Positions 28,797 to 54,972 of a stretch of 54,972 nt of DNA are shown here, in pieces. Numbering within the stretch: the first letter of the stretch is position 1; the number at the start of each line of letters is the position of its first letter. The notes under the pieces are model-generated. The model ran no database searches. It saw only the letters and a program-made list of their open reading frames with translations, and had not been told where the DNA came from. A program made the position numbers and the translations under genes. Origin of the DNA: Reyranella sp. (GTDB taxonomy: Bacteria > Pseudomonadota > Alphaproteobacteria > Reyranellales > Reyranellaceae); NCBI GenBank assembly GCA_029946105.1, contig JAQSDW010000060.1:1-54972 (forward strand). The letters are read 5' to 3'.

Positions 28797-29882
28797 CTAG
28801 CCATCTCTTGGGCCGACGTAGTTCGACTGCGGGCGGATGATGCGGCCGCCCTTCTCCTGCTCGAAGATATGGGCGCACCATCCCGCCACACGGCCCACCG
28901 AGAACAACGCGGTGAAGGCGCTGCGCGGCACCTCGAGCGCCTCCAGCAGAAGCGCCGTGTAGTATTCGACATTGGTGTCGAGCCGCCGGCCAGGCTTGTG
29001 CCTGCGCAGCGCGGCAATGGCGCTCTTCTCGACCTCGACGGCAAAGGCGAGCCGCCCCGCGGTTTGCGGCAGGGTCGCGACAGTGTTCTTCAACACGTCG
29101 GCACGCGGATCGCGCACCTTGTAGATGCGATGGCCGAAACCCATCAAGGTCGTGCCCTTGGAAAAGGCATCATCGAACCAGGCGCCAGCCCGTTCGAGTG
29201 AGCCGATTTCGTCGAACATGTCGAGCACCGGACCGGGTGCACCGCCATGGAGCGGACCTTTCAGGGCGCACAGCCCCGCCAACACCGCGGAGATGAGGCC
29301 GGCATGCGTCGAAGCAACGACGCGCGCCGTGAAGGTCGAGGCATTGAATCCGTGGTCGGTGACGGTCGCAAGATAGGTATCGAGTCCCTTCTCGAAGACA
29401 TCGTGCGCGCGCTTGCCGCGGATCATACGCAGCAGGTCCTGCGCCGTCGTGAGCGCGGGATCCGGCGCCAGCGCCGGTTTGCCTTCCGAGGCCCGCAGGA
29501 GGGCGGCGAGGAATACCGGCAGCGCGCCGCAGACGAGATAGTGGTGCGGCATCAGTTCGGAATCGGCCAGCATGCCGAGACCGACGCGCAGCCCTTCGAC
29601 CGGGGTCAGGCCCTTGGCGGCCTGCAGCAGCTTCGGCACTTCGGCAAAGGTCCGCACCCGCGCCGAGGCGAAGCCTTCGCGGACGGCACGTTCGTCGCCG
29701 CCACCTTGCACAAACCCGTCCCACAGCAGCGCTGCCACTCCTTCGAAGCCGCGCATGGCGACGAGATCCTCGATCGACTGGCCGCGCACGATCAGCCGAC
29801 CTGCCTCGCCATCGACCTCGCTCATCACCGTATCGGCCACGATCACCCCGTCGAGGCCGCTGTCCACCCGTGTCTGCAACAT
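28797..29882 (-). CDS. Citrate synthase / methylcitrate synthase family protein
   Basis: A 361-residue short-form citrate synthase. Catalytic His212 is in KGPLHGGAP and His251 in MGFGHRIYKVRDPRA. The position of the usual Asp is Glu306 in LDTNVEYYTA, a variant I recall from CitA-type citrate synthase 2 proteins. It condenses acetyl-CoA or propionyl-CoA with oxaloacetate; which one cannot be told. The ATG at 29882 follows AAGGGATTTCCG. It is divergent from the HTH-citrate synthase fusion across an AT-rich, palindrome-bearing gap of 85 bases. Confidence 0.9.
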   Translation of the reverse strand: MLQTRVDSGLDGVIVADTVMSEVDGEAGRLIVRGQSIEDLVAMRGFEGVAALLWDGFVQGGGDERAVREGFASARVRTFAEVPKLLQAAKGLTPVEGLRVGLGMLADSELMPHHYLVCGALPVFLAALLRASEGKPALAPDPALTTAQDLLRMIRGKRAHDVFEKGLDTYLATVTDHGFNASTFTARVVASTHAGLISAVLAGLCALKGPLHGGAPGPVLDMFDEIGSLERAGAWFDDAFSKGTTLMGFGHRIYKVRDPRADVLKNTVATLPQTAGRLAFAVEVEKSAIAALRRHKPGRRLDTNVEYYTALLLEALEVPRSAFTALFSVGRVAGWCAHIFEQEKGGRIIRPQSNYVGPRDG

Positions 29883-29935
29883 CGGAAATCCCTTCGCTTG
29901 TTCGCGAGGAGGATTCGAGCCAGATATATATATTG

Positions 29936-29959
29936 TCAATATTGATTGAATTGATCAAT
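29936..29959. promoter_or_regulatory. Two AT-rich perfect palindromes between the divergent citrate synthase genes
   Basis: TCAATATTGA (29936-29945) and ATTGATCAAT (29950-29959) are each perfect 10-base palindromes, with centres 14 bases apart. They share TTGA half-sites and lie in an AT-rich stretch (TATATATATTG just before) that stands out from the G+C-rich surroundings. They are well placed to control both divergent genes, plausibly through the HTH domain of the downstream product. Confidence 0.6.
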
Positions 29960-29967
29960 AATAAGAG

Positions 29968-31173
29968 ATGGCGACGGAATGGCTGAGTTCGAAGGAAGCG
30001 GCACGTCGGCTGGGGGTCTCGGCCGCCACGCTCTATGCCTATGTGAGCCGCGGCCTGCTGCGCTCCGAAGGCAGCTTGGGGCAACGTGAACGGCGCTACC
30101 GTGCCGGAGACGTCTCGCAGCTCAAGCGGCGGCGCGAGGTCGGACGCAAGGCGGAGTCCATTGCCGCCAACGCCCTCGACTTCGGCACACCCGTCCTCGA
30201 ATCGTCGCTGACGCTGATCGAGAACGGCCGTCTCTTCTATTGCGGTCATGACGCCAGCCGCCTCGCGCGCAACGCCTCGCTGGAGCAGGTGGCGCAACTC
30301 CTCTGGGACTGCGACGACCGGCCGTTCGGGCCGAGGAACCTGCCGCCGATGTCGGCCGCCCTGCGCGGCGCCTGGCTGGCCGCGGCTTCGCTCCCGCCGG
30401 TCGACAGTTGCCTCGTCCTGCTGCCCGCCGCGGCGCGCTGGGACCACCCGAGCTGGGTCGAGGACCGCACCGCCATGCTCGAAACCGGCGCGCGCATCCT
30501 GCGACTCCTGACCGCCGCCGTGACCGGCGAGCCCCTCTCCGACAAGCCCGTGCACGAGCAGGTGGCCGCGGCCTGGCGCGTGCCGGCCGACCGTGCGCCG
30601 TTGATCCGCGCCGCCCTGGTCCTGTCGGCGGACCATGAATTCAACGCCTCGACCTTCGCCGCCCGCGTCGTGGCGTCGACCGGCGCCAACCTCTACGCCT
30701 CGACGATAGCCGGCCTCGTGGCGATCAACGGCCCGCGCCACGGCGGGCTCACCCGGCGTGTGGCGAGCCTGTTCGACCAGCTCGAGGACGCCTCCGACCT
30801 CGACGGCGAACTCGTGCGCCGTGTGCGCGACCACGTCTATATTCCGGGCTTCGGTCACCAACTCTATCCGGACGGAGATATCCGGGCGGCGACGCTGTTC
30901 ACCATGCTGCGCGAGATCGTGCCCCAATCGTCCGAGCTCGCCTTTGCCGACCGCCTGGCGGCCGCTGCCGAGCGCGTGATCGACCGCAAGCCCAACGTCG
31001 ATTTCGCAACCGTCACCATCGAGCGCGTCCTCGGTCTGCCCAAGAATTCGGCGCTGGCGCTCTTCTTGCTGGGCCGCACAGTCGGCTGGATCGCGCACGC
31101 GCTCGAGCAGGCCGCGCACGGAGCGTTGATCCGGCCACGCGCGCGTTATACAGGTCCGCGACCCGGAAGCTGA
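29968..31173 (+). CDS. Citrate synthase family protein fused to an N-terminal MerR-like HTH
   Basis: A 401-residue fusion. Residues 1-55 form a MerR/excisionase-type winged helix (SSKEAARRLGVSAATLYAYVSRGLL, then RRYRAGDV). Residues 70-400 are a citrate synthase domain with NASTFAARVVAST, His258 (NGPRHGG), His297 (PGFGHQLY) and Asp345 (PNVDFA) all present. The Arg next to His297 in normal enzymes is Gln298, and the following KVRDPRA is PDGDIRA, so substrate binding may differ. It could be a metabolite-sensing repressor, an active enzyme, or both. It is divergent from a normal citrate synthase and followed closely by an isochorismatase-type gene. Confidence 0.9.
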   Translation: MATEWLSSKEAARRLGVSAATLYAYVSRGLLRSEGSLGQRERRYRAGDVSQLKRRREVGRKAESIAANALDFGTPVLESSLTLIENGRLFYCGHDASRLARNASLEQVAQLLWDCDDRPFGPRNLPPMSAALRGAWLAAASLPPVDSCLVLLPAAARWDHPSWVEDRTAMLETGARILRLLTAAVTGEPLSDKPVHEQVAAAWRVPADRAPLIRAALVLSADHEFNASTFAARVVASTGANLYASTIAGLVAINGPRHGGLTRRVASLFDQLEDASDLDGELVRRVRDHVYIPGFGHQLYPDGDIRAATLFTMLREIVPQSSELAFADRLAAAAERVIDRKPNVDFATVTIERVLGLPKNSALALFLLGRTVGWIAHALEQAAHGALIRPRARYTGPRPGS

Positions 31174-31186
31174 GGCCACCTCCCCT

Positions 31187-31759
31187 ATGACCGATGCCCT
31201 GATCATCATCGACATGCAGCAGGGCGCGTTTGTCCACACGACGCCAAAGTACGACGCGGCGGGGCTGATCGGACGCCTCAACCAGCTCGCCGACGCGGTG
31301 CGCGCCCACGGCGGTGCGGTTGTCTTCATCCAGCACGACGGGCCGCCTGGCGACCCATTCCATCCCGACCAGCCGGGCTGGAAACTGCTCGACGACTTCT
31401 CGCCGCGCCCCGCCGACACCGTCATCCGCAAAAAGTCCTGTGATGCTTTTCTCGAAACCTCTCTCGACGATTTCCTGCGTGCGCGCGCCATCGACCGGCT
31501 AATCATCACCGGCTGGGCGACCGACTACTGCGTCGACACGACGGTGCGCAGCGCGCTGGCGCGCGGCTATCCCACGGTCGTGCCCTCGGACGGTCACACC
31601 GCGGCGAACCGGCCCCATCTGCCGGCCGAGAAGATCATCGAGCATCACAATGCCATCTGGGCGGACTTCATTGCGCCCCGCGGTCCGGCGGTAGTCTGTT
31701 CCGTCGCCGACGTTATCCACCAAAACGCAGCCTTGCCCGACCGGCATGCGCGTGCTTAA
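31187..31759 (+). CDS. Cysteine hydrolase family protein (isochorismatase fold)
   Basis: A 190-residue hydrolase with a complete triad: Asp9 (LIIIDMQQG), Lys82 or Lys83 (VIRKKSCDAF) and Cys115 (GWATDYCVDTTV). The DYCVDTT motif is nicotinamidase-like, although the metal-binding histidines of nicotinamidase are not obvious. It would cleave a small amide or related bond in the cytosol. It starts 13 bases after the HTH-citrate synthase gene, so it may be co-transcribed. pyrB follows 12 bases later. The reaction is unassigned. Confidence 0.88.
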   Translation: MTDALIIIDMQQGAFVHTTPKYDAAGLIGRLNQLADAVRAHGGAVVFIQHDGPPGDPFHPDQPGWKLLDDFSPRPADTVIRKKSCDAFLETSLDDFLRARAIDRLIITGWATDYCVDTTVRSALARGYPTVVPSDGHTAANRPHLPAEKIIEHHNAIWADFIAPRGPAVVCSVADVIHQNAALPDRHARA

Positions 31760-31771
31760 CGTCGCGCTTTA

Positions 31772-32740
31772 GTGACAAAGAAACGCATGGGCCTGCCGAG
31801 GTTGCCCCACCTTCTCGGCATCGAGGGTCTGTCGCCTGAAACGATTTCGGGCCTGCTCGACCTTTCCGAAAATTACATCGACCAGAACAGATCGATCGAT
31901 AAACGGCGCGACATGCTTGCGGGCCGCACCGTCATCAATCTGTTCTTCGAGAATTCGACGCGAACACGCACCAGCTTCGAGGTCGCGGCCAAGCGACTGG
32001 GCTCCGACGTCATCAACATGGATGTCGCCACCTCCTCGGTGCGCAAGGGCGAAACGCTGCTGGACACGGCCATGACGCTGAACGCCATGCGGCCCGACGC
32101 CATAGTCGTGCGCCACCACGAGTCCGGCGCGGTCAACCTCTTGTCGCAGAAGGTCAACTGCGCCGTCATCAATGCCGGCGATGGCCAGCACGAGCACCCG
32201 ACGCAGGCGCTGCTCGACGCGCTCACCATCCGACGACGACGCGGCAGCCTCGAGGGGCTGCTGGTGGCGATCTGCGGCGACATCATGCACAGCCGCGTGG
32301 CGCGCTCGAACATCCATCTGCTGCAGATTATGGGCGCGCGGGTGCGCGTGGTCGGCCCGCCGACCCTGATGCCGACCGACATCGACAAGATGGGGGTCGA
32401 GGTCCACTACAACATGAAATCAGGCCTCAAGGACGTCGATATCGTGATGATGCTGCGCCTGCAGACCGAGCGCATGCAGGGCACGTTCGTGCCGTCGATC
32501 AGCGAATACTTCCATTTCTTCGGCCTCGACCACGCCAAGCTGGAATATGCCAAGCCCGACGCGCTGATCATGCATCCCGGCCCGATGAACCGCGGCGTGG
32601 AGATCGACTCGGAGGTCGCCGACGACCTCGACCGCAGCGTCATCCACGAGCAGGTCGAGATGGGCGTGGCCGTGCGCATGGCCTGCCTCGAGGCGCTGAT
32701 CGGTGGCCGGCGCAACGCTCTGGTCGGAGCCGTGGCATGA
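31772..32740 (+). CDS. pyrB: Aspartate carbamoyltransferase catalytic chain
   Basis: A 322-residue ATCase. It has the carbamoyl-phosphate loop [10 protein letters not shown] (61-70), [10 protein letters not shown] and [12 protein letters not shown], and the C-terminal aspartate-domain end [14 protein letters not shown]. It makes carbamoyl-aspartate, the first committed pyrimidine step. The start is a GTG at 31772 with no clear ribosome site; an ATG at 31787 ([12 protein letters not shown]) is a possible alternative. The stop overlaps pyrC by four bases. The partner pyrC looks degenerate, so a PyrB-PyrC' complex of the pseudomonad type is likely. Confidence 0.96.
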
Positions 32741-54961: not shown

Positions 54962-54972
54962 TCATGATCATG

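Follow-up and report, generated by a model that had tools for sequence, protein, structure and literature searches.

Two divergent citrate synthase genes

Contig JAQSDW010000060.1 of Reyranella sp. (assembly GCA_029946105.1), analyzed here from position 1 to position 54,972 (the window), carries two divergent genes of the citrate synthase (CS) family (Table 1). One encodes a helix-turn-helix (HTH) domain fused to a complete CS (hereafter HTH-CS), which we propose to be a local regulator, and the other, its partner, encodes a shorter CS. A gap of 85 bp (29883-29967), containing two perfect 10-base palindromes, separates them. This arrangement had been reported in a preliminary description of the window, and both genes, the gap, and the two domains of the fusion are as described there. 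The genome (5.62 Mb in 242 contigs) encodes one further citrate synthase, on a different contig.

At the N terminus of HTH-CS, Pfam recognizes HTH_17 (residues 5-56; 35.6 bits, cut-off 27) and MerR_1 (residues 7-54; 27.1 bits, cut-off 21.6), while PF00376 stays under its cut-off of 28.2 with 26.6 bits. Residues 73-391 match Citrate_synt (PF00285; 209.6 bits, cut-off 27). Among 40 HTH-CS homologues, 39 match HTH_17 and all match Citrate_synt, and the segment LYAYVSRG (residues 22-29) is invariant in their alignment. The AlphaFold2 model computed from an alignment of 40 sequences (mean predicted local distance difference test score, pLDDT, 90.3; predicted template modeling score, pTM, 0.79) consists of a winged HTH, a long helix (residues 46-70), and a CS fold; residues 61-75 are of low confidence, and the linker between the two domains is probably flexible. 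When the model was compared with solved structures using VIA-align, methylcitrate and citrate synthases gave the best alignments to the CS part, with residues 69-401 superimposing on the methylcitrate synthase 3hwk (Z 35.0, root-mean-square deviation 2.8, 330 aligned residues). Likewise, in a PDB sequence search, the best stretch lay within residues 203-400, in the CS part, for the best 60 of 66 matches. Since the listed structure matches of the whole model barely covered the HTH, residues 1-70 were folded alone and searched separately. Their nearest structures are BldC-DNA, SoxR, RacA, and HiNmlR, with Foldseek E values of about 2e-3 to 1e-2 and none at or below 1e-3.

The fusion had been noted to keep both histidines and the aspartate of a citrate synthase, and it does. 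HTH-CS holds the catalytic triad H258, H297, and D345 together with R306, R370, and R391, which correspond to H264, H305, D362, R314, R387, and R407 of the E. coli enzyme. We counted these residues in 139 distinct fusions (57 relatives, mostly from the genus, 81 from the set of 84 loci presented below, and the window) after removing fragments shorter than 350 residues (L094, L127, L155, L033, and L070). H258 is retained in 139, H297 in 137, D345 in 138, and each of the three arginines in all 139. All six are also invariant, H297 nearly so, in the 40 diverse HTH-CS rows.

This conservation (137 to 139 of 139 fusions, many from one genus), its persistence in the diverse rows, and the structural closeness to methylcitrate and citrate synthases would suit a trigger enzyme in the sense of PutA: HTH-CS would be a working citrate or 2-methylcitrate synthase that represses its own gene and the divergent one, turnover being part of the switch. 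We give this possibility serious but tentative weight, somewhat short of an even chance. The same residues also bind ligands, so their conservation is no proof of turnover.

The altered catalytic residues belong to the partner CS, not to the fusion. The partner, which scores 395.7 bits against NF009005 (cut-off 332), had been called a normal citrate synthase, but it has a glutamate (E306) instead of the catalytic aspartate and a glutamine (Q352) instead of an active-site arginine. The glutamate is present in 74 of 74 partner rows, and the last arginine is changed in 73 of them (the window's own sequence was entered twice, as WIN_cs and L078, and the fusion rows L058 and L048 were excluded). 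Glutamate-type synthases with an NVE motif at the catalytic position include Bacillus subtilis CitA (2c6x) and Mycobacterium tuberculosis CitA (8gmf), which are known enzymes; since they share this motif, the partner need not be inactive. B. subtilis citA presumably lies divergent from citR, a LysR-type repressor gene, an arrangement that the literature searched did not confirm, whereas the gene divergent from the partner is HTH-CS. A longer partner frame, starting at a TTG and reaching 29939, was rejected as unlikely because it would extend into the operator described below.

A conserved operator with three half-sites

The two palindromes of the preliminary description are both present and perfect, and they are set in a G+C-rich region as stated: the G+C fraction is 0.33-0.35 in the two 60-base windows across the operator described below versus 0.65-0.72 in most surrounding windows. 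Among 5,000 dinucleotide shuffles of the gap, 83 (1.7%) contained at least two perfect 10-mers and 7 contained three. The palindromes alone are thus only mildly unusual, and conservation provides the stronger evidence.

To describe this conservation, we used the pattern TCAATMTTGATT-N5-RATCAAY (19 scored positions), searched in the 180 bp that precede the start of the fusion gene in 84 loci (80 from the genome collection and 4 from plasmid records, some being near-copies). With at most 3 mismatches, the operator is found in 76 of the 84, perfect in 45 and always on the same strand as the fusion gene. By comparison, dinucleotide shuffles yielded 0.06 per 84, and none of 2,742 other 190-bp windows from the same loci matched with up to 4 mismatches. 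In 6 of the remaining 8 loci, a variant has a spacer one base shorter (4 bp), with 0 mismatches of 18 in L080, L123, and L137, 1 in L144 and L161, and 3 in L148; none of the 2,742 control windows contains this form at 3 mismatches or fewer.

The logo of the 76 sites, in which ten columns reach 2.0 bits, reads TCAA-N2-TTGA-N9-TCAA, with three half-sites of alternating orientation. Over 56 gaps from the genus, the outer part is variable, but next to the fusion identity lies at 86-96% in 22 of the 30 columns between -8 and -37. Many relatives have TCAATCTTGA where the window has the first palindrome, TCAATATTGA, which means that conservation does not extend to the exact palindromes; outside the family, the second is mostly of the AATCAA type. 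On this comparison, the shared operator proposed in the preliminary description is supported, but the two exact palindromes are window-specific registers of the larger unit TCAA-N2-TTGA-N9-TCAA.

The operator overlaps the predicted promoter of HTH-CS, which agrees with the sigma-70 consensus at 10 of 12 positions and is the sole match in 3 kb (0.1 expected); a transcript from it would have a very short leader, if any, ahead of the ATG at 29968. This overlap, and the AT-richness of promoters in general, would fit an HTH that is a remnant or a protein-protein module beside a gap that is a promoter only. We regard this as the least probable of the explanations considered, hardly to be expected given the invariance of LYAYVSRG in 40 rows, a three-half-site layout, in which ten columns reach 2.0 bits across 76 loci, that is unlike a -35/-10 arrangement, and, in one type of cluster, an operator lying 2.9 kb from HTH-CS.

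Because the pattern had been defined on the loci that were counted, the operator was also searched in reverse, from genome to gene. In 299 evenly drawn Pseudomonadota genomes, the perfect operator occurs 13 times, in 12 genomes, and the backward control gave 0. Twelve of the 13 sites immediately precede an HTH-CS gene and have the correct orientation. The thirteenth sits between a divergent 2-hydroxyacid dehydrogenase gene and a cluster of short-chain dehydrogenase/reductase and major facilitator superfamily (MFS) genes, with HTH-CS 2.9 kb onward; two Burkholderia plasmids have the same cluster layout, with a perfect and a one-mismatch site at that promoter, away from HTH-CS. Allowing 2 mismatches in 43 genomes of the genus, a site is present in 38, always including the HTH-CS/CS locus, which is the sole site in 27; the genome of the window has a single site at this threshold. 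In three of the 5 genomes without a site (G015, G017, and G035), the fusion is present and its operator is altered more strongly. The backward control at this threshold gave 1 match in 71 genomes. Ten other genomes or records that carry HTH-CS were searched with at most 1 mismatch, and 9 of them have exactly one site. The comparison of gaps across genomes that the preliminary description had proposed as its own test therefore finds the operator conserved in orthologous gaps and beyond, and the reverse search leads back to HTH-CS loci.

The operator is deduced from conservation, which would also suit its being owned by an unlinked regulator of organic acid genes, HTH-CS being a mere second metabolic enzyme. 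We consider this quite unlikely: in the reverse search, the perfect site appears at HTH-CS loci only, it is retained across swapped neighbors, and the fusion has its own MerR/BldC-type DNA-binding domain. An unlinked owner is disfavored because the linkage between the operator and HTH-CS would stay unexplained.

In Telmatospirillum, the site found at 1 mismatch or fewer belongs to a second HTH-CS copy (L165:1525-2682), which reads LYSYVSRG, lies divergent from a 2-hydroxyacid dehydrogenase gene, and has its own one-mismatch operator. Another element, TTCAAGATTGATTG with GTTCAA or a similar sequence after it, recurs in several Reyranella genomes (L172 near 1000, L173 near 1014, and L176 near 960); in L176 it is just upstream of a frame that appears DinB-like by eye. 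Sites of this kind, recurring at 2 mismatches and inspected in three genomes, were rejected as HTH-CS operators, the motif being a different one.

Table 1. Features of the HTH-CS locus (positions in the window)
Feature	Position	Strand	Details
HTH-citrate synthase fusion (HTH-CS)	29968..31173	+	401 aa; proposed local regulator; Pfam HTH_17, MerR_1, and Citrate_synt
Divergent partner, glutamate-type citrate synthase (CS)	28797..29882	-	361 aa; start ATG; NF009005/PRK12350
Winged HTH domain of HTH-CS	29980..30135	+	Residues 5-56; Pfam match and fold comparison
Citrate synthase domain of HTH-CS	30184..31140	+	Residues 73-391; Pfam Citrate_synt; VIA-align
HTH-CS active-site codon H258	30739-30741	+
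HTH-CS active-site codon H297	30856-30858	+
HTH-CS active-site codon R306	30883-30885	+
HTH-CS active-site codon D345	31000-31002	+
HTH-CS active-site codon R370	31075-31077	+
HTH-CS active-site codon R391	31138-31140	+
Partner CS altered codon E306	28965-28967	-
Partner CS altered codon Q352	28827-28829	-
Conserved operator TCAATATTGATTGAATTGATCAAT	29936..29959	+	Half-sites TCAA 29936-29939, TTGA 29942-29945, TCAA 29955-29958
Perfect palindrome TCAATATTGA	29936-29945		Within operator
Perfect palindrome ATTGATCAAT	29950-29959		Within operator
Third palindromic 10-mer ATATATATAT	29924		Simple AT run
Predicted sigma-70-like promoter for HTH-CS	29933..29962	+	TTGTCA-18-AATAAT; consensus match only

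A constant gene and operator with changing neighbors

HTH-CS is widespread. In a set of 121 genomes, the fusion is detected at E values of 1e-100 or less in 60 of the 65 that belong to the genus (including the window's own) and in 7 of 8 others of the family; in a wider draw, at 1e-50 or less, it is found in 39 of 290 alphaproteobacterial genomes and in 28 of 212 genera. A search of species-level genomes with one recognition motif returned at least 599 stretches, and 591 of those listed are relatives of the N-terminal part. No HTH-CS relative was found in viral contigs.

The gene that faces HTH-CS varies. In 72 loci that were cut out, a divergent CS partner is present in 68, with a gap of 81-89 bp in 63 of these; L031 ends at a contig end, and L072, L074, and L075 have another neighbor. 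Of the set of 84 loci, 48 have a divergent gene for a glutamate-type CS, 30 one for a class III CoA-transferase, and 2 one for an HMGL-like acyltransferase; 4 have none of these. The Pfam family CoA_transf_3 was confirmed in the 10 CoA-transferase neighbors tested; in the class III CoA-transferases beside HTH-CS (L110:1930-3426 and others), about 200-240 residues precede the best Pfam match. On a tree of 90 fusions, the type of partner requires 5 changes, versus a mean of 26.8 after shuffling; this is a quick tree with several long branches, and its starred branches alone force 3 changes for the CS label. Other divergent neighbors encode DUF2332 proteins, 2-hydroxyacid dehydrogenases with or without transporters, methyltransferases, a porin with an MFS transporter, or a Rieske dioxygenase operon. 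The preliminary description had proposed an enzyme-derived regulator of its paralogue: we retain the regulatory reading, but the paralogue is only one case, the neighbor often being a CoA-transferase or another organic acid gene.

In genome G458, the neighbor of HTH-CS is a prp operon, with prpB (NF008455, 519.6 bits, cut-off 353), prpF (TIGR02334, 725.8 bits, cut-off 440.55), a citrate synthase family frame in the position of prpC, and a long frame that is aconitase-like by eye. In the prp operons of other bacteria, this place is often occupied by the regulator PrpR. The adjacency to a methylcitrate operon favors the trigger enzyme; the pattern as a whole, with HTH-CS and the operator constant while organic acid neighbors change, is that of a local regulator family.

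Natural variants of the gap agree with a site that serves the divergent neighbor too. G033 (L033:736-1501) and G054 have 763-764 bp between the genes, owing to an insertion of about 680 bp; a perfect operator persists at a distance of 52 bp from the CS gene, and only a remnant with 6 mismatches is left at the fusion. Similarly, the 154-bp gap of G047 has a perfect site 54 bp from the CS gene and, just before the fusion, the first two half-sites only (TCAATATTGATT). In G046 (L077:1245-1700), HTH-CS and the CS gene are both truncated and no operator lies within 3 kb, as if they had been lost together.

Ten further plasmid members (L177-L186) were examined, and all six active-site residues are kept in 8 of them. 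The two exceptions have lost catalytic residues (H258S, H297R, and D345V in L181; H258Q and D345F, with H223N, in L182), yet they retain R306, R370, and R391 and remain divergent from transport or catabolic genes. We count them for a regulator and against a trigger enzyme. In L137, H297 is changed, yet the operator with the 4-bp spacer is present.

A putative one-component regulator with a citrate synthase sensor

The domain make-up, the intact active site, the conserved operator, its linkage to the gene, and the swapping of neighbors are established from the sequence. They suggest that an old metabolic enzyme has turned into a widespread regulator reading organic acids, and we think it highly probable that HTH-CS is a local one-component transcription regulator with a CS-fold sensor.

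In the mechanism that we propose, DNA binding by HTH-CS, the direction of control, the ligand, and any retained turnover being inferred, a MerR/BldC-type winged HTH would be joined by a linker to a complete CS that provides both the dimer and the effector pocket. HTH-CS would bind TCAA-N2-TTGA-N9-TCAA over its own promoter, in the short intergenic stretch shared with the divergent gene, and would thereby control both its own gene and the neighboring organic acid or acyl-CoA gene, here that of the glutamate-type CS. Citrate synthases are dimers that close upon binding oxaloacetate. CS ligands (oxaloacetate or a citrate-like acid, with or without acyl-CoA) might thus open or close the CS dimer and change its affinity for DNA; two HTH heads carried by the dimer could contact the TTGA and TCAA half-sites, domain closure altering the distance between them. 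As the operator covers the predicted promoter of the fusion, the most economical interpretation would be autorepression combined with control of the divergent gene, repression being relieved when the pathway metabolite is present.

Several observations weigh against this regulator. The operator pattern was derived from the same loci in which it was first counted, and the promoter overlap is putative, resting on a consensus match. Neither form of the operator was found in 2 of the 84 loci, L127 (a fragment that adjoins a simple repeat) and L156, the latter having H297 and D345 changed and LYAYVSRG present; none was found in the 8-kb locus of L181 or of L182 either. The reverse search is partly redundant, 8 of its 13 sites coming from one genus (g221) and one, in G515, being the Delftia locus already used. 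At 2 mismatches or fewer, the pattern is unspecific: it yields 18 matches in 9 genomes that lack HTH-CS, and 13 additional sites, mostly the one recurring other motif, are distributed over 11 genomes of the genus. The fusion frame of G033, moreover, has an in-frame stop. A last point comes from the closest published experiment that we found, on Caulobacter crescentus, in which the extra CS genes citB and citC (CCNA_03757/03758) adjoin each other by locus tag; CitB replaced E. coli GltA and CitC did not, and their identities to the main CS are 30% and 32% (PMC7083601). These values resemble those that we obtain for the partner (29.7%) and for the fusion (32.1% over residues 203-396). The terms "HTH," "helix-turn-helix," and "DNA-binding domain" do not occur in the main text of that report; should CitC be an HTH-CS, its failure to replace GltA would oppose ordinary CS activity and may likewise speak against a trigger enzyme with GltA-like activity.

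Returning to the one-component regulator, we see about equal reason to accept or to doubt a broader proposal, in which an entire family of such regulators would use CS as its sensor domain, acting as local switches of acyl-CoA and organic acid genes. Most members would have kept an intact site and would signal through binding or turnover of oxaloacetate and acyl-CoA, some lineages would lack catalysis and keep the arginines, and, in the window, the regulator would be the canonical-looking synthase and the controlled enzyme the altered one.

Fusions of enzymes to DNA-binding domains are a known kind, represented by MocR/GabR and PutA. MocR, GabR, and PdxR consist of a winged HTH fused to a fold-type I aminotransferase. 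As proposed for HTH-CS, a complete enzyme fold bearing an HTH provides the dimer and the effector pocket, the target is local and often divergent, and catalysis is partial or lost in members; HTH-CS differs by its MerR/BldC-like HTH, by its citrate synthase, and by the catalytic residues kept in 137 of 139 fusions. The trigger enzyme PutA is similarly an enzyme with its own DNA-binding domain, a divergent target, and a shared intergenic operator, but it is a flavoenzyme with membrane switching and has a ribbon-helix-helix rather than a winged HTH, and the activity of HTH-CS is putative. The N-terminal winged HTH is reminiscent of the MerR superfamily (BldC, SoxR, and HiNmlR), from which HTH-CS is set apart by citrate synthase as the sensor and by its operator, TCAA-N2-TTGA-N9-TCAA. 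MerR activators typically untwist promoters with spacers of 19-20 bp, whereas the predicted HTH-CS promoter, one consensus match, has a spacer of 18. Within the literature searched, which left most subscription journals outside, we found no description of an HTH-citrate synthase regulator.

If the proposal holds, a widespread family of regulators would have the fold of a central metabolic enzyme as its effector domain, giving a direct transcriptional readout of oxaloacetate, citrate, or acyl-CoA status. This would help explain the three "citrate synthases" of genomes such as this one, and it would supply a defined operator with ready targets, the methylcitrate operon included, a natural gradation, from intact enzyme to dead sensor, for studying the change from enzyme to regulator, and a module for citrate-type biosensors. 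In plasmid annotations, HTH-CS goes by names such as "citrate synthase family protein," which mention the citrate synthase alone.

Downstream of HTH-CS in the window, after 13 bp, lies a gene for an isochorismatase family hydrolase (31187-31759), which may be cotranscribed with it; the next gene, at 31772, is aspartate carbamoyltransferase-like by eye.

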